64,000 bases of DNA from Burkholderiales bacterium (GTDB taxonomy: Bacteria; Pseudomonadota; Gammaproteobacteria; Burkholderiales; Burkholderiaceae_C): positions 1 to 64,000 of the forward strand of contig JAPLPK010000067.1 of NCBI GenBank assembly GCA_026400275.1, in the 5' to 3' direction. The notes beneath the pieces were generated by a model. The model was not told where the DNA came from, did no database searches, and saw nothing but the letters and a program-made list of their open reading frames with translations. Made by a program: the position numbers and the translations under genes. Positions 56,658 through 64,000 of this stretch are shown in pieces (position 1 is the stretch's first letter; each line of letters begins with the position of its first letter).

Positions 56658-56677
56658 AGCTGACCGTTTGGTTAGCT
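56658..56677. promoter_or_regulatory. RutR-like operator upstream of the pyrimidine/pseudouridine cluster
   Basis: AGCTGACC-GTTT-GGTTAGCT is a near-perfect palindrome. It closely fits the E. coli RutR consensus TTGACCANNTGGTCAA (TGACC-N4-GGTYA core). A TATAGT -10-like box follows within a few bases, and the ABC gene starts 45 bases later. A RutR-type TetR protein is encoded in the same operon, so feedback control is likely. Confidence 0.7.
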
Positions 56678-56721: not shown

Positions 56722-57525
56722 ATGAAGCCATCTGATCCTTCCGCCGGCGTTGCCGTATTACCCGCCGTAGAGGTGCGCAAGGCGAACGTGGTGTACCCCG
56801 CTGCCGATGCGCCGGTGCATGCCTTGCAGGACATCGACCTGACGGTGCGCCAGGGGGAATTTGTCTCGCTGATCGGCCCGTCCGGCTGCGGCAAGACAAC
56901 CCTGTTGCGTGCCATTGCCGACCTAGAACCCATCAGCTCCGGCACCATGCTGGTGAACGGCGTCAGTCCGCATGATGCGCGCCTGGCCCGCTCCTACGGT
57001 TATGTGTTCCAGGCTCCCGCGCTGTTCCCCTGGCGCACGGTGCTGGCCAATGTAGTGCTGCCGCTGCAGATACAAGGGCGCGGCAAGGCCGAGAGCCAGC
57101 GCATCGCCCTGGAACAGCTGGAGCGTGTGGGCCTGAAAGGCTTTGAGAAGAAATACCCTTGGCAGCTTTCCGGCGGCATGCAGCAGCGCGTGTCGATTGC
57201 CCGTGCGCTGGCTTTCGAGCCTCGCATCCTGATGATGGACGAGCCCTTTGGAGCGCTGGATGAAATCACCCGCGACCGGCTCAACGAGCAGCTGCAACAG
57301 CTGTGGCAGCGCGAGCGCCGCACCGTGGTCTTCGTCACCCACTCGATTGCCGAGGCGGTGTACCTGTCCACCCGCATCGTGGTGATGTCGCCACGGCCTG
57401 GGCGCATCGTGAAGGTGATCGAATCCACCCTGCCCGACGCACGCCACCTGGGCCTGCGCGACACGCCGGAATTCATGGCCTTGGCGCACGCAGTACGGGA
57501 GTCATTAGCAGATGGCCACCATTAA
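56722..57525 (+). CDS. ABC transporter ATP-binding protein (nitrate/taurine/pyrimidine-precursor type)
   Basis: The 267-residue protein has Walker A GPSGCGKTTLLRAIADL, Q-loop FQAPALFPWRTV, signature LSGGMQQRVSIARAL, Walker B ILMMDEPFGALDEITR and switch His in FVTHSIAEAVYLSTRIVVMSPRPG. This is the SsuB/TauB/ThiZ class, which works with NMT1/THI5-type binding proteins. It powers uptake through the two permeases that follow. Start at 56722. It overlaps the next gene by 14 bases. Confidence 0.94.
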   Translation: MKPSDPSAGVAVLPAVEVRKANVVYPAADAPVHALQDIDLTVRQGEFVSLIGPSGCGKTTLLRAIADLEPISSGTMLVNGVSPHDARLARSYGYVFQAPALFPWRTVLANVVLPLQIQGRGKAESQRIALEQLERVGLKGFEKKYPWQLSGGMQQRVSIARALAFEPRILMMDEPFGALDEITRDRLNEQLQQLWQRERRTVVFVTHSIAEAVYLSTRIVVMSPRPGRIVKVIESTLPDARHLGLRDTPEFMALAHAVRESLADGHH

Positions 57526-58426
57526 AAACCGCTCTGCTTTCGATAGCGCTATGCCCATAGCCACCGTGCTACTGGCGGTTATTTTGCTTTGGTACGTGGG
57601 TGCCGTGTGGTTAAACGCACCTGGTGCCATCGAGCGCGTGATCACGCCCCGCCTGGCGCCCGGTGCCAGCTGGACCTGGGCCGATCTGGTGCAGACCACA
57701 CTGTCCATGCAGCGCCCGGTGCTGCCCGCGCCGCAGCAGGTAGCGCTGGACTTCTGGTCCAGCCTGGTCGATTGGCCGGTGGATTCGCCGCGCAATCTGC
57801 TGTACCACGTGGCCGTCACCGCCCAGTCCAGCCTGCTGGGCTTTGTGATGGGCACGCTGTTTGGCCTGCTGCTGTCGGCCGGCATCGTGCATTCGCGCAC
57901 CCTGGACAGGGCGCTGATGCCCTGGATCGTAGCCTCGCAAACCATTCCCGTGCTGGCGATTGCGCCCATCGTGCTGATCATTCTGGGCAGCCTGGGTTTC
58001 TCTGGCGTCTGGCCCAAGGCGGTGATTGCCATGTACTTGTGCTTCTTCCCGGTCACGGTGGCCATGGTGCAGGGCCTGCGCTCGCCGCAGAAGATCGATA
58101 CCGAGCTGCTCTACACCTACGCCGCCTCGCCCTGGCAAGCCTTCTGGCTGCTGCGTGTGCCTGCGGCTCTGCCGTTCTTGTTTCCCGCGCTGCGCGTGGG
58201 CATCGCTGCAGGTCTGGTGGGCGCCATGGTGGCCGAGCTGCCTACCGGCGCCCAGGCCGGCCTGGGCGCCAAGCTGCTGCTGGGCTCCTACTACGGCAAT
58301 ACGGTTGCTATCTGGTCGGCCCTGCTGATGTCGGCCTTGCTGGGCCTGGGTTTGACCGCCGCCGTGCTGGGCGTGGAGCGCCTGGTACTGCGCCGCCACG
58401 GTGTGCGGCCAGGGGCTGCAGCATGA
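57512..58426 (+). CDS. ABC transporter permease 1
   Basis: The 304-residue protein has about six helices and the BPD_transp_1 loop: AVTAQSSLLGFVMGTLFGLLLSAG, IVASQTIPVLAIAPIVLIILGSLGFSG, ELLYTYAASPWQAFWLLRVPAALPFLFPALRVGIAAGLVGAMVAEL. The EAA-like loop LLYTYAASPWQAFWLLRVPAALP contacts the ATPase. It pairs with the second permease as a heterodimer; its N-terminus has an extra soluble stretch (about 35-75). ATGA joins it to permease 2. Confidence 0.92.
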   Translation: MATIKNRSAFDSAMPIATVLLAVILLWYVGAVWLNAPGAIERVITPRLAPGASWTWADLVQTTLSMQRPVLPAPQQVALDFWSSLVDWPVDSPRNLLYHVAVTAQSSLLGFVMGTLFGLLLSAGIVHSRTLDRALMPWIVASQTIPVLAIAPIVLIILGSLGFSGVWPKAVIAMYLCFFPVTVAMVQGLRSPQKIDTELLYTYAASPWQAFWLLRVPAALPFLFPALRVGIAAGLVGAMVAELPTGAQAGLGAKLLLGSYYGNTVAIWSALLMSALLGLGLTAAVLGVERLVLRRHGVRPGAAA

Positions 58427-59370
58427 AGGCGCGCAGTCCGTTGGCCGTGGCTGGCCTGGTGCTCGCCAGTGCTGTTTTTGCTTCTATTTTTATAGCTACT
58501 GCCGCAGGTATTTCAAGCGCTAGCAGCCTTTTTTATCCTGGGCTTTTGTTGGTGCTGGCATTGGCCGTGTGGACAGTGCGGGCCTGCGCAGCGCTGGACG
58601 GTCGGGCCATTTACGGCATGCTGACGGCCGGCCTGTTCGGCCTGTGGCTGCTGTACTTCTGGCAGCTGCTGGTGACGGCGTTCGAGGTGCCGCGCGTGTT
58701 GCTGCCTGCGCCCTGGTTCATTGCCCAGGCCATGGCCGAGCAGTGGACGGTGCTGTGGACCGACTTTGTGCAGACCGTACTCAAGTCGGTGCTGACCGGC
58801 TGGCTGCTGGGTTGCGGCCTGGGGTTCGCCGTGGCGGTGGCGATTGACCGCATGCCGTTTCTGCAGCGCGGCCTGTTGCCTATCGCCTCGCTCACCAGCA
58901 CCGTGCCCTTGGTCGGTGTGGCGCCGATTGCGGTGATGTGGTTTGGCTTTGATTGGCCGTCCAAGGCGGCGGTGGTGGTCTTGATGACCTTCTTCCCCAT
59001 GCTGGTGTCCACGCTGGCCGGGCTGAAGGCCGCAGGCAAGCTGGAGCGCGAGCTGATGTACAGCTACGCGGCGGGCTATGGCCAAACCCTGTTGGCGTTG
59101 CGCCTGCCCAGCGCCATGCCGTTCATCTTTGGCGCGCTGAAGGTGAATGCCACGCTGGCCTTGATCGGCGCCATCGTGGCCGAGTTCTTCGGATCGCCAA
59201 CGGCGGGCCTGGGCTTTCGCATTTCCACCGAGGCGGCCAAGATGCACATGCCGCTGGTGTGGGGCGCAATTGTGGTGGCCGCCATCACCGGCTCGGCGGC
59301 CTATGCCCTGTTGGTTCAGCTGGAGCGGCGCTTTGCGTTCTGGCACCCGTCGGTCCGGTCCCAAAAATAG
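58423..59370 (+). CDS. ABC transporter permease 2
   Basis: The 315-residue protein shows FVQTVLKSVLTGWLLGCGLGFAVAVAIDRMPFLQRGLLPIASLTSTVPLVGVAPIAVMWFGF and the EAA loop ELMYSYAAGYGQTLLALRLPSAMPFIFGALKVNATLALIGAIVAEFFG. The first 50 residues include ASIFIATAAGISSASSLFYPG, encoded by a copy of the dispersed palindrome within the first membrane region. The rest is a normal BPD permease. It starts at ATG 58423, overlapping the previous stop. Confidence 0.92.
   Translation: MKARSPLAVAGLVLASAVFASIFIATAAGISSASSLFYPGLLLVLALAVWTVRACAALDGRAIYGMLTAGLFGLWLLYFWQLLVTAFEVPRVLLPAPWFIAQAMAEQWTVLWTDFVQTVLKSVLTGWLLGCGLGFAVAVAIDRMPFLQRGLLPIASLTSTVPLVGVAPIAVMWFGFDWPSKAAVVVLMTFFPMLVSTLAGLKAAGKLERELMYSYAAGYGQTLLALRLPSAMPFIFGALKVNATLALIGAIVAEFFGSPTAGLGFRISTEAAKMHMPLVWGAIVVAAITGSAAYALLVQLERRFAFWHPSVRSQK
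58472..58540 (+). repeat. Dispersed palindrome copy inside permease 2
   Basis: The DNA tgcttctatttttatagctactgccgcaggtatttcaagcgctagcagccttttttatcc carries the element's TATAGCTACT-GCCGCAGGTATTTCAAGCGCTAGCAGC. It is in frame and encodes part of the first hydrophobic segment. Confidence 0.75.
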
Positions 59371-59403: not shown

Positions 59404-60411
59404 ATGCAAAAACTGTCCAAGTTGAGTCAATGCCTGCTGGCCGCCGCGTTTGCGGTTGGCAGCCTCGCCGCCCAGGCGCAAGAGAAGGTCACCGTGCAGC
59501 TGAAATGGGTGCCGCAAGCCCAGTTTGCCGGCTACTACGTGGCGGCCGCCAAGGGCTACTACAAGGCCGAGGGACTGGACGTGACCATCAAGCCCGGCGG
59601 CCCCGATATTTCTCCGGTGCAGGTGATCGCCGGCAACAACGCTGACGTGATCGTCAACTGGATGCCCGACGCGCTGGCCGCCCGCGAGGCTGGTGTGCCA
59701 CTGGTCAACATCGCCCAGGTGTTCAACCGCTCCGGCCTGATGCTGACCTGCAAAAAGGCCAGCGGCGTCAGCAGCCCGAAGGACCTGAAGGGCAAGACCC
59801 TGGGCGTCTGGTACGGCGGCAATGAATACCCGTTCCTGAATTGGATGGGCAAGCTGGGATTCAAGCCCGACACCGACATCAAAGTGCTGAAGCAAGGCTT
59901 CAACGTGGACCCGCTGCTGCAGAACCAGGCAGCGTGCGTATCCACCATGATCTACAACGAGTACTGGCAAATCATTGACGCCGGCGTCAAAGAGAGCGAC
60001 CTGGTCACCTTCTTCTATGAAGACCAGGGTGTGGCCTCGCTGGAAGACGGCCTGTACGTGCTCGAATCCAAGCTGAAAGACCCGGCCTTCGTGGCCCGCA
60101 TGGGCAAGTTTCTGAAGGCGACCTTCAAGGGCTGGAACGACGCGGTGAAGAACCCCGAAGAAGCCGCCAAGATTGTGGTCTCCAACGACATGTCCGGCAG
60201 CGCCACCCTGGCAGTGCAAAAGCGCCAGATGGAAAACGTGGCCAAGCTGATCACCACCGCCAGCACGCCGAAGATGGGCTACCTGGAACCCGCCGCCTAT
60301 GAGCGTACGGTGAAGGTGCTGATGTCTGGCGGCAGCGCACCTGTCATCAAGAAGGACCCAGGCGCCGCCGCCATGAGCCATGTGGTGTGGGACGCGGCCT
60401 CCAAAAAGTGA
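59404..60411 (+). CDS. NMT1/THI5-like ABC substrate-binding protein
   Basis: The 335-residue protein has signal peptide MQKLSKLSQCLLAAAFAVGSLAAQA and the family core VQLKWVPQAQFAGYYVAAAKGYYKAEGLDVTIKPGGPDISPVQVI, GVWYGGNEYPFLNWMGKLG and NVDPLLQNQAACVSTMIYNEYWQIIDAG. Such proteins bind pyrimidines, hydroxymethylpyrimidine or riboflavin precursors. With RutR-like TetR and psuKG next to it, a pyrimidine base or (pseudo)uridine ligand is likely, as inference. TAGGAG lies upstream of the ATG at 59404. Confidence 0.92.
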   Translation: MQKLSKLSQCLLAAAFAVGSLAAQAQEKVTVQLKWVPQAQFAGYYVAAAKGYYKAEGLDVTIKPGGPDISPVQVIAGNNADVIVNWMPDALAAREAGVPLVNIAQVFNRSGLMLTCKKASGVSSPKDLKGKTLGVWYGGNEYPFLNWMGKLGFKPDTDIKVLKQGFNVDPLLQNQAACVSTMIYNEYWQIIDAGVKESDLVTFFYEDQGVASLEDGLYVLESKLKDPAFVARMGKFLKATFKGWNDAVKNPEEAAKIVVSNDMSGSATLAVQKRQMENVAKLITTASTPKMGYLEPAAYERTVKVLMSGGSAPVIKKDPGAAAMSHVVWDAASKK

Positions 60412-60520: not shown

Positions 60521-61174
60521 ATGAGTCGATTGACAGCCAGCACGGCGGATACCAAGGGCCAGATCCGCCAGGCCAATGAAGAGCTGATACTCGCCGCGGC
60601 AGAACGCGTGTTTGCCGGGGCGGGTTTCAGTGGCGCCACCATGGCGCAGATTTCCGAAGAGTCCGGCCTGCCCAAGGCCAATCTGCACTATTACTTCGGC
60701 AACAAGGAGGCGCTGTACCGCGCGGTGCTGGCCCGCATTTTGGAGGACTGGCTGGCACCCACCCACGGCATCACCCCTGAGGCCGACCCGAGCCAGGCCA
60801 TAGGTGCTTACATCCGCAGCAAGATGGCCCTGTCTGCTGCGCGGCCGCATGCGTCCAAAGTCTGGGCCAACGAGCTGCTGCACGGCGCCACCGTGGTGCG
60901 GCAGCTGCTGGCCACCGAGCTGCGTGCCACCGTGCGCGCCAAGTCCGCCGTCATCGACCAATGGATTGCCGAGGGCAAGATGGCACCGGTAGACAGCACG
61001 CACCTGTTCTTCACCATCTGGGCCGCGACCCAGACCTATGCCGACTTCGACATCCAGGTCAGCGCCGTGCTGGGTAAGCCAGCCCTGACCCGCAACGACC
61101 ACAGCCGCGCTACCACCCATGTGCTGGCCTTGATACTGCGCGGCTGCGGCCTGAACCCAGACCCCGCGCCATGA
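60521..61174 (+). CDS. RutR-like TetR-family regulator
   Basis: The 217-residue protein has the TetR HTH (ILAAAERVFAGAGFSGATMAQISEESGLPKANLHYYFGNKEALY) and the RutR-type C-terminal domain: LEDWLAPTHGITPEADPSQAIGAYIRSKM, DSTHLFFTIWAATQTYADFDIQVSAVLG, collinear with E. coli RutR (FMIWASTQHYADFAPQVEAV). RutR releases DNA on binding uracil or thymine. It is coupled to psuK by ATGA, and a RutR-like site lies in front of the operon. Start at 60521 after AGGGA. Confidence 0.88.
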   Translation: MSRLTASTADTKGQIRQANEELILAAAERVFAGAGFSGATMAQISEESGLPKANLHYYFGNKEALYRAVLARILEDWLAPTHGITPEADPSQAIGAYIRSKMALSAARPHASKVWANELLHGATVVRQLLATELRATVRAKSAVIDQWIAEGKMAPVDSTHLFFTIWAATQTYADFDIQVSAVLGKPALTRNDHSRATTHVLALILRGCGLNPDPAP

Positions 61175-62091
61175 GTTACATGCTGGCCGTGGGCGCCTCG
61201 AATATGGACATTGCCGGCCACAGCAGCCAGGCCGTGGTGCTGGGCGACTCCAACCCCGGCCATATCGCTTTGGCCCCGGGTGGCGTGGCGCGCAATGTGG
61301 CAGAAAACCTGGCGCGCCTGGGTAACTGCACACGGCTGGTCAGCGCTGTGGGCGACGACACGCCAGGCCGCAGCCTGCTGGACGCCACAGCCGCAGCCGG
61401 AGTGGATCTGCGTGCCTGCTGGGTGCTGCCGAGCGAGGCTACCTCCAGCTATTTGTCGCTGCATGGACCGGACGGCGATATGGCCATGGCGGTGAACGAT
61501 ATGCGCATCGTGGCCCGCATTACGCCCGAACGGCTGGCGCCCTTGGCCGCCGATATCGCCGCCGCCCAGGCCCTGCTGCTGGACTGCAATTTGACCGATG
61601 CAGCCCTGGCCTGGCTGTGCACGCACAGCGGCGGCACGCCGATTTTTGTGGATACCGTCTCCACGCATAAGTGCCAGCGCATTGCCCCCTGGCTGCAGCA
61701 TGTGCACCTGCTCAAACCCAACCGGCTCGAAGCCCAGGCCCTGACAGGCTTGCCGCTGGACAGCCTGGCCGACGCGCCCGCCGTGGCGGCCTGGCTGCAC
61801 CGCAAGGGCGTGCGGCAGGTGGTGCTTAGTTTTGGCGCGCAAGGCGTGTTCTGGAGCGATGCGGATGGCAGCCAGGGCCTGCAGAGCGCCCCCCACGTCG
61901 CAGTAGTGAACGCCACAGGCGCGGGCGACGCACTCATGGCCGGGCTGATGCATGCGCATGCCCAGGGCCAGACCCTGTCGGAGGCGGCGGGTTTCGGCTC
62001 TGTATGTGCGGCCCTGACGCTGGGTGTGCAAGGTGCGAACCACCCCCAGCTGTCGCTGGCGCTGGTGCAACAATGGCTGCGCAGTACCTGA
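61171..62091 (+). CDS. psuK: Pseudouridine kinase
   Basis: The 306-residue PfkB kinase resembles E. coli PsuK: ASNMDIAGHSSQAVVLGDSNPGHIALAPGGVARNVAENLARLGN, SEATSSYLSLHGPDGDMAMAVNDM, VDTVSTHKCQRIAPWLQHVHLLKPNRLEAQALTG and NATGAGDALMAGLM with the catalytic Asp. It phosphorylates pseudouridine at the 5' position. It is translationally coupled to the TetR gene and is followed by psuG. Confidence 0.92.
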   Translation: MSYMLAVGASNMDIAGHSSQAVVLGDSNPGHIALAPGGVARNVAENLARLGNCTRLVSAVGDDTPGRSLLDATAAAGVDLRACWVLPSEATSSYLSLHGPDGDMAMAVNDMRIVARITPERLAPLAADIAAAQALLLDCNLTDAALAWLCTHSGGTPIFVDTVSTHKCQRIAPWLQHVHLLKPNRLEAQALTGLPLDSLADAPAVAAWLHRKGVRQVVLSFGAQGVFWSDADGSQGLQSAPHVAVVNATGAGDALMAGLMHAHAQGQTLSEAAGFGSVCAALTLGVQGANHPQLSLALVQQWLRST

Positions 62092-62114: not shown

Positions 62115-63041
62115 ATGACGGCTAATCCTTTTCTCGACATCCATCCCGAAGTAGCGGCTGCCCTGGCCGCCAAGCGTCCCGTGGTGGCGCTGGAGTCCAC
62201 CATCATTGCCCATGGCATGCCCTACCCGAACAATGTGGCCACGGCGCTGCAGGTAGAGGCCGAGGTGCGCGCCCATGGCGCTGTGCCAGCCACCATCGCC
62301 ATCGTGCAGGGGCGTTTGAAAGTGGGCCTCAGCCCCGACGAAATTGAACAACTGGGGCGTGGCGGGCGCGACGTCGTCAAGGTCAGCCGTCGCGATATGG
62401 CGTTCATCGTGGCCGCAGGCCAGACCGGTGCCACCACCGTGGCCTCGACCATGCTGATTGCGGCCATGGCCGGCATCCGCGTATTCGCCACCGGCGGCAT
62501 TGGCGGCGTGCACCGGGGCGCGGCGCAGAGTTTTGATATTTCGGCCGACCTGCTTGAGCTGGCGCAAACCCCGGTGGCCGTGGTCTGTGCCGGCATCAAG
62601 TCGATTCTGGACCTGGGGCTGACGCTCGAATACCTGGAAACACACGGCGTGCCCGTGGTGGGCTACCAAACCAATAATCTGCCGGCTTTCTACACCCGTG
62701 AAAGTGGCTTCAAGGTGGACTACCGGCTGGATACGCCCGACGCCATCGCCGGCGCCATGCAGGCCCAGTGGGCCATGGGGCTGCAGGGTGGCATGGTGGT
62801 GTCCAACCCGATTCCTGAGGCCTATGCCATGCCGCGCGCGACCATTGACGCCGCTATCGAGCAGGCGCTGCAAGAGGCCCGCGCCCAGGGCGTGGCGGGC
62901 AAGCAGTCCACCCCATTTTTGCTGGCCCGCGTCAGCGAGATCACCGGTGGCAACAGCTTGGCTTCCAACATCCAGCTGGTGCTGAACAATGCCCGGCTGG
63001 CGGCAGGTATTGCCGTCGCCTACCAGCAGCGGGTGGCCTGA
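62115..63041 (+). CDS. psuG: Pseudouridine-5'-phosphate glycosidase
   Basis: The 308-residue protein shows PsuG hallmarks: PVVALESTIIAHGMPYPNN (Glu27), DVVKVSRRDMAF (Lys89), GATTVASTMLIAAMAGIRVFATGGIGGVHRGA, VVCAGIKSILDLGLTLEYLET (Schiff-base Lys162) and QTNNLPAFYTRESG. It splits the C-C bond of pseudouridine 5'-phosphate into uracil and ribose 5-phosphate. A metal site uses the conserved Asp near ISADLLEL. Start at the ATG 62115 rather than the TTG before it. Confidence 0.96.
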   Translation: MTANPFLDIHPEVAAALAAKRPVVALESTIIAHGMPYPNNVATALQVEAEVRAHGAVPATIAIVQGRLKVGLSPDEIEQLGRGGRDVVKVSRRDMAFIVAAGQTGATTVASTMLIAAMAGIRVFATGGIGGVHRGAAQSFDISADLLELAQTPVAVVCAGIKSILDLGLTLEYLETHGVPVVGYQTNNLPAFYTRESGFKVDYRLDTPDAIAGAMQAQWAMGLQGGMVVSNPIPEAYAMPRATIDAAIEQALQEARAQGVAGKQSTPFLLARVSEITGGNSLASNIQLVLNNARLAAGIAVAYQQRVA

Positions 63042-63046
63042 GCGCC

Positions 63047-63919
63047 ATGGTTTATCGCACGGTGCTGGACGACGCACAGGGCCTCTCGGCGGACGCCCGC
63101 GCCGCCTATGCGCGCGACGGCGTGCTGGTGCTGGAGGACTTTGTGTCTGTTGCCCAATGCCAGGCTTTGCAGGCACGCGCACTCGAACTGGTGGCCGAGC
63201 ATGCATCGCGTGCGCCCGGCACCGTTTTTTCTGCCCGCGACCAGCGCCATGCCAAGGACGCTTACTTTGCCGCTTCGGCCCGGGGCATAGGCGCGTTCTT
63301 TGAAGAGGGGGCGTTCGATGCGCAGGGCCAGCTGCAGGTGCCGCTGGAGCGCGCCATCAACAAGCTGGGCCATGCCATGCATGACCTGGACCCGGTGTTC
63401 CAGGCCTTCTCGCGCGGCCCGCGCTTGCAGGCGGTGGCGGATGGTCTCGGCCTGGCAGATGCCCGGCTCGTCCAGTCCATGTACATCTTCAAGCAGCCCG
63501 GCATTGGCGGCGAGGTGAACTGCCACCAGGACGCGACCTATCTGTACACCGAGCCGCAGTCGGTAGTGGGCTTCTGGTTTGCGATCGAGGATGCGCACCG
63601 CAGCAATGGTTGCCTGGGTGGCGTACCGGGCGGGCACCGCCATGGGCTGAAAGAGGTGTTCCGCCGCCAGGCCGATGGGACTTTACGGTTGGAGCAGCTG
63701 CAAGCCAGCGCGCCATGGGATATGGAGCAGCTAGAGTGGCTGGAGGTGCGCCAGGGCAGCTTGATTGTGTTCAACGGCCTGCTCCCCCATTTGTCAGAAC
63801 CCAACCGCTCGGCCCAGTCGCGCCACGCCTACACCTTGCATGCGGTGGACGGTCGGGCGCATTATCCGGACAGCAACTGGATACAACCCCACGGAGCGCC
63901 ATTTACCGGCTTTGCGTAA
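63047..63919 (+). CDS. PHYHD1-like Fe(II)/2-oxoglutarate dioxygenase (PhyH family)
   Basis: The 290-residue protein has the dioxygenase iron triad: His and Asp in NCHQDATYLYTEP and the distal His in GLLPHLSEPNRSAQSRHAYTLH, with the Arg (SRHAYTLH) likely binding 2-oxoglutarate. It starts TVLDDAQGLSADARAAYARDGVLVLEDFVS, typical of PhyH/PHYHD1. It lies 5 bases after psuG in the same operon. A role on a pyrimidine nucleoside or base is possible but not shown; the substrate is unknown. Confidence 0.85.
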   Translation: MVYRTVLDDAQGLSADARAAYARDGVLVLEDFVSVAQCQALQARALELVAEHASRAPGTVFSARDQRHAKDAYFAASARGIGAFFEEGAFDAQGQLQVPLERAINKLGHAMHDLDPVFQAFSRGPRLQAVADGLGLADARLVQSMYIFKQPGIGGEVNCHQDATYLYTEPQSVVGFWFAIEDAHRSNGCLGGVPGGHRHGLKEVFRRQADGTLRLEQLQASAPWDMEQLEWLEVRQGSLIVFNGLLPHLSEPNRSAQSRHAYTLHAVDGRAHYPDSNWIQPHGAPFTGFA

Positions 63920-64000
63920 GCACAGACCGTACGAACACGAGGAGGATTGCATCGGCTTTACACCGCATACCACTTTTCATATTTTGCCTATAACAGGCAC
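63920..64000. other. Window end after the dioxygenase gene
   Basis: The last 81 bases hold no ORF or terminator that I can support. Confidence 0.5.

Follow-up and report, generated by a model that had tools for sequence, protein, structure and literature searches.

Free 2'-O-methyl nucleosides were first shown to undergo demethylation in a Nucleic Acids Research paper of 17 December 2025, which reported 2-oxoglutarate (2OG)-dependent activity for the metagenomic protein FJS, for human PHYHD1 and for several PhyH proteins from bacteria, plants, fungi and viruses (PMC12709175). PHYHD1, FJS and other bacterial PhyH proteins carried out this reaction both in vitro and in Escherichia coli, formaldehyde release was demonstrated for FJS, and human PHYH was inactive. 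FJS and PHYHD1 accept many bases, the base specificity of FJS being broad, but 5'-mono- and triphosphates were substrates for neither. Docking placed the ribose against K102, H105, Q139 and W277 of PHYHD1 and stacked the base on F161, a position held by Tyr in the bacterial demethylases tested. No bacterial demethylase was set in an operon: FJS was described from an ORF of 858 bp on an insert of ~1200 bp, its neighbours unreported (PMC12709175). A second bacterial route for 2'-O-methyl nucleosides, the RK9NH 2'-O-methyluridine hydrolase with an aldolase (PMC6278475), differs in two ways: it hydrolyses the glycosidic bond of a nucleoside that is still methylated, and it works without an oxygenase.

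The locus considered here lies in a 64,000-nucleotide stretch of a Burkholderiales contig, the whole of which we call the window. The source is a soil-type bacterium, and pseudouridine is a common altered building block of RNA. As in psuK-psuG pseudouridine degradation of E. coli, the enzymes are a kinase and then a glycosidase; in the run considered here they are joined by a 2OG oxygenase, a regulator of the RutR type and two ABC transporters (Table 1). Literature on PsuG with a dioxygenase, or on PhyH with a nucleoside phosphorylase and a gene cluster, yielded no bacterial operon, and both the psuKG setting and the wider nucleoside-operon context reported below appear to be undescribed in the papers searched.

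Fold and pocket of the oxygenase

The PhyH ORF is intact, opens with ATG and is free of internal stops. It begins five bases behind psuG, as the initial annotation had it, and its product matches PF05721 over profile positions 1-213 of 213 (E 2.2e-40, 139.7 bits; gathering cut-off 22 bits). The "PHYHD1-like" label given there also held: the best PDB sequence match is human PHYHD1 (2opw/3obz, E 2e-57; 41% identity over 263 aligned columns), with PHYH second at 2e-8. An AlphaFold2 model (mean pLDDT 91.8) has 3obz and 2opw as its top fold matches (E ~1e-30, TM 0.86), the next family following at 3e-14. With an HxD...H iron triad (H160, D162, H248), a 2OG-binding Arg (R259) and the 3obz fold match, the protein has the features of a double-stranded beta-helix Fe(II)/2OG oxygenase, and all four residues are invariant across the 92 bacterial rows of our alignment. 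Judged by sequence and modelled fold, it is a member of the PHYHD1 subfamily, closer to this than to PHYH or other PhyH enzymes.

In the pocket, residues K106, H109, Q143 and W278 correspond to the human ribose contacts K102, H105, Q139 and W277, and these positions show no variation in 92 of 92 bacterial rows, their contact roles being docking-based (PMC12709175). The window protein differs from PHYHD1 at base-contact positions, with Y165 for the stacking F161 and N158 for S154, and in a shorter alignment of the region of the extra alpha-4 helix near the cavity opening (human Q56-L71), where model confidence is low (mean 55, residues 61-70); its gene also lies in a probable nucleoside-salvage operon. 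FJS, compared by description only, is likewise a bacterial PhyH protein of similar size (858 bp versus 290 aa), and differs in that its gene neighbours are unreported. The best reading is that the window PhyH is a bacterial counterpart of human PHYHD1 and FJS, a further enzyme of the kind described in 2025.

Gene run and putative regulation

The products of psuK and psuG are, from their sequence matches, a genuine pseudouridine kinase and pseudouridine-5'-phosphate glycosidase, in agreement with the pseudouridine setting first proposed for the locus. PsuG best matches the E. coli glycosidase 4gij (E 7e-127) and has the catalytic Lys, the residue replaced by alanine in 4gim; PsuK best matches pseudouridine kinase 7vkp (E 6e-80), and its best NCBIfam match is also pseudouridine kinase, at a score under the family cut-off. 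The psuK gene begins inside the 3' end of the regulator gene. Among PDB relatives of the upstream NMT1/THI5-type binding protein is the pyrimidine-precursor binding protein 3ix1, and the ABC transporter downstream of PhyH (contig 64090-68847) is of the BMP type, a nucleoside family.

Table 1. Features of the gene run, in window positions unless marked as contig positions
Feature	Position	Strand	Basis or remark
Operator-like palindrome AGCTGACCGTTTGGTTAGCT	56658..56677	.	Candidate RutR-type site; ~45 bases before first gene
ABC ATPase, first gene of run	56722..57525	+	PF00005; start predicted from sequence
ABC permease 1 (BPD_transp_1)	57512..58426	+	Pfam
ABC permease 2 (BPD_transp_1)	58423..59370	+	Pfam; start predicted via 4-base overlap with permease 1
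NMT1/THI5-type ABC substrate-binding protein	59404..60411	+	PF09084
RutR-type TetR regulator	60521..61174	+	PF08362 TetR_C_3, 175 bits; TIGR03613
psuK, pseudouridine kinase (PfkB family)	61171..62091	+	PF00294; PDB 7vkp
psuG, pseudouridine-5'-phosphate glycosidase	62115..63041	+	PF04227, 450 bits; PDB 4gij
PHYHD1-like Fe(II)/2-oxoglutarate oxygenase (PhyH), 290 aa	63047..63919	+	ATG start; Pfam; PDB sequence match; AlphaFold2 model
Gap after PhyH, up to window end (81 bases)	63920..64000	+	Run goes on past window
Bmp binding protein	contig 64090-65061	+	Past window edge
ABC ATPase of Bmp set	contig 65194-66759	+	Past window edge
Two BPD_transp_2 permeases	contig 66756-67886, 67879-68847	+	Past window edge

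In Rhodoferax sp. OV413 (L002), the gene order from the ABC ATPase to the BPD_transp_2 permeases is identical to that of the window contig. The next gene there encodes a Tsx nucleoside channel, where the window contig has two luciferase-like flavin monooxygenases (MsnO8 type and NtaA/DmoA type, the second with weak similarity to RutA) and an M20 amidohydrolase (L082:6059-9623, equal to contig 69058-72622).

The operon is probably under the control of its RutR-type regulator. RutR is a TetR-family regulator of pyrimidine catabolism, and the window protein resembles it in its TetR_C_3 domain and in the GACC-N4-GGT operator-like site upstream of the run. It differs in its neighbours, which are psuKG and ABC transport genes rather than rutABCDEFG, and its score of 190.8 bits against the TIGR03613 RutR model lies below the equivalog cut-off of 368 bits, so that it is classed by sequence as RutR-like only. 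In the promoter region, a pattern search returned no RutR box within three mismatches of the consensus; it is instead the palindrome AGCTGACCGTTTGGTTAGCT, at four mismatches, that sits inside a stretch of ~50 bases shared without change by Rhodoferax sp. OV413, the flanks of which differ, and that we infer as a candidate site for the regulator. Its core, CTRACCN4GGTYAG, has one further copy in the genome; being within a coding region, this copy looks fortuitous. Over the whole window, matches to the RutR consensus TTGACCANNTGGTCAA at up to three mismatches number 8 against 1.75 expected and are spread throughout, a count reached in 0 of 100 shuffles.

Linkage to psuKG

In a maximum-likelihood tree, the window PhyH falls in a clade of 11 Burkholderiales rows (support 100/97). 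Besides the window, PhyH adjoins psuKG in L002, L006 and L008, while no psuKG lies near it in the close relatives L003-L005 and L007. Both psuKG and Bmp genes are present in L008, the basal branch of the clade, and also in L002 and L006; the Bmp ABC genes come after PhyH in the window contig, L002 and L008, with one Bmp gene in L006. This pattern fits an old linkage that was lost in some members of the clade, although separate gains of the linkage are also compatible with it.

The adjacency is confined to four Burkholderiaceae genomes (the window genome, G223, G006 and G002), and in a sample of 30 psuG loci from across the phylum, PhyH was adjacent only at the window's own. The idea of a psuKG-PhyH module conserved across distant lineages was thus rejected. 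Co-occurrence with psuKG, the check suggested in the initial annotation, gave a divided answer. It was strong inside the family: of 400 Burkholderiaceae genomes, 45 had PhyH, 85 had PsuG and 39 had both, so that PsuG was present in 39/45 genomes with PhyH (87%) versus 46/355 without (13%; odds ratio 44, p 4e-24, uncorrected for shared ancestry). Collapsed to genera, the proportions were 18/21 versus 17/105 (p 1e-9, likewise uncorrected for shared ancestry), and RuBisCO, taken as a control for an unrelated accessory trait, was not associated with PhyH (odds ratio 1.2, p 0.64). Most of the 45 genomes, however, carry the more distant PhyH clade, which is physically unlinked to psuG, so that lifestyle or common descent may account for the co-occurrence. 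Beyond the family the association was non-significant (PhyH in 4/68 genomes with PsuG versus 3/140 without, p 0.22), and a general link between PhyH and PsuG across the phylum was dropped.

PhyH could be a dedicated demethylase of 2'-O-methylpseudouridine (Psi-m), catalyzing the first step of a path from Psi-m to pseudouridine, pseudouridine 5'-phosphate and uracil with psuKG as its sole partners. Psi-m is a natural nucleoside of human rRNA (PMC6182160, PMC7694415), and the spacing of five bases between psuG and PhyH in the window, together with the adjacency in L002, L006 and L008, is consistent with such dedication, as is the tolerance of FJS and PHYHD1 for many bases but not for 5'-phosphates, which would put demethylation before PsuK. 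We nevertheless regard this explanation as doubtful, given that relatives of PhyH adjoin general nucleoside genes, that FJS is broad in base specificity and that pseudouridine is absent from the text describing these enzymes (PMC12709175). Position 158 is also uncoupled from psuKG linkage, being N in both the window and the unlinked L007 and G in the linked L006; a pseudouridine-specific residue at the human S154 position was discarded for this lack of correlation. Psi-m would tie PhyH directly to psuKG and is a natural candidate substrate, though no sequence feature proves its use. The window genome also encodes elsewhere one member of the nucleoside hydrolase family and two of the PNP_UDP family, potential outlets for other nucleosides, which argues against assuming Psi-m alone.

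Nucleoside genes near related enzymes and the proposed salvage route

General nucleoside catabolism is a better-supported shared theme than the psuKG link. We surveyed 80 related loci, and because a simple gene caller gave shadow ORFs at some of them, family assignments rest on Pfam/NCBIfam and tblastn. At least one tested nucleoside gene lay within 5 kb of PhyH at 27/80 loci, versus 9 with one farther out; the remaining 53/80 had none within 5 kb, some contigs being short. Gene orders vary between lineages: Dongia and comparable genomes have Bmp ABC-cytidine deaminase (CDA)-PNP-DeoA-DeoB-PhyH, Acidimicrobiia have Bmp permeases-PhyH-adenosine deaminase (ADA), other Actinomycetota have CDA-PhyH and Burkholderiales have psuKG-PhyH-Bmp. 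Representatives of thymidine phosphorylase, PNP, phosphopentomutase (deoB), ADA and CDA scored above curated NCBIfam cut-offs, and UPRTase lies 1.1 to 6.1 kb from PhyH in several loci of different lineages. Two Dongia homologues are located in nucleoside operons, and Dongiaceae proteins have been called FJS-like (PMC12709175). At five Kiloniella loci (e.g. L024:7332-8312), a gene for the RNA-modification enzyme Dus (dihydrouridine synthase) precedes PhyH by two or three genes.

A second clade in Burkholderiaceae includes PhyH genes with URC1-type GTP_CH_N and URC4-type DUF1688 genes behind them. We take PF12471 and PF07958 to be URC1 and URC4, respectively. Both function in a uracil catabolic pathway (PMC3869809, PMC7530994), and these loci are a candidate nucleoside-to-uracil catabolic island. 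The arrangement, once with UPRTase, was seen at L154:4875-8289, L159:1139-8789, L088, L091 and L093, where a TonB receptor gene lies upstream in the opposite direction.

Neighbors of this kind, thymidine phosphorylase and URC uracil genes among them, could alternatively point to a pyrimidine deoxyribonucleoside 2'-hydroxylase (EC 1.14.11.3-like) that would hydroxylate deoxyuridine or thymidine at C2' and so feed ribonucleoside catabolism. Such activity is known from fungi, and it would bring the same sugar position near the iron. We consider it very unlikely for PhyH: the measured activity of its relatives is 2'-O-demethylation, and literature linking the two fungal hydroxylase activities was not found among the papers searched, which leaves EC 1.14.11.3 untied to the PhyH proteins here, although deoxynucleosides are missing from the substrate table of the PHYHD1 paper (PMC12709175).

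Other homologues sit in different surroundings. Those of Rudaea and Janthinobacterium have unrelated neighbors, with no tested nucleoside genes nearby; at L029-L079 (Janthinobacterium, Massilia and Duganella), where tested nucleoside genes were likewise not found near PhyH, it adjoins a divergent LysR gene and a gene for a 380-aa protein without a Pfam match. In Rhodoferax lacus (L061:8801-12088), a second-clade PhyH is flanked by a LigB-type ring-cleavage gene on one side and a gene for a class V aminotransferase (weak PhnW-like match) on the other, a setting in which that homologue may have another substrate. Since PF05721 is functionally diverse, the window enzyme might itself act on an unrelated small molecule, much as other enzymes of this family hydroxylate ectoine, proline or phytanoyl-CoA, and its adjacency to psuG, limited to a small clade, would then be incidental. 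The non-nucleoside neighbors of several homologues are in keeping with this, but sequence and fold put PhyH with PHYHD1 far ahead of other members, the pocket residues are invariant and nucleoside-gene neighbors recur in separate phyla, all of which makes an unrelated substrate very unlikely.

We therefore favor, with good though not full confidence, a role for PhyH in an operon for the salvage of modified nucleosides, where it would demethylate 2'-O-methyl nucleosides ahead of the PsuK step. By homology, 2'-O-demethylation is its most likely reaction; oxidation of the base is disfavored because ribose demethylation is the activity measured for close homologues. The claim that human PHYHD1 lacks a settled substrate is outdated, free 2'-O-methyl nucleosides being its substrate class (PMC12709175).

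The gene cluster probably recycles altered pieces of broken-down RNA. Nucleosides of degraded RNA, the predicted cargo, would enter via the NMT1-type and BMP-type ABC transporters. With Fe(II), O2 and 2OG, PhyH would hydroxylate the 2'-O-methyl group, whose carbon would leave as formaldehyde, restoring the 2'-OH. Freed pseudouridine could then pass through PsuK and PsuG to uracil and ribose 5-phosphate, and freed ordinary nucleosides could pass to the hydrolase and phosphorylases encoded elsewhere in the genome. Since FJS and PHYHD1 are inactive on 5'-phosphates, the PhyH step should precede PsuK rather than fall between PsuK and PsuG or after PsuG; of the two placements originally offered, a modified nucleoside processed upstream of PsuG is thus most likely, and processing after PsuG is not retained.

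As was anticipated for this operon, its nucleoside-gene setting bears on PHYHD1 itself. The contexts described here suggest that bacterial PHYHD1-type enzymes serve nucleoside salvage, which supports a metabolic over an RNA-editing role for the family. These nucleoside operons are genetic systems for probing the role of PHYHD1-type enzymes and the fate of Psi-m, and together with the psuKG pairing they open bacterial catabolism of 2'-O-methyl nucleosides and Psi-m to direct test.
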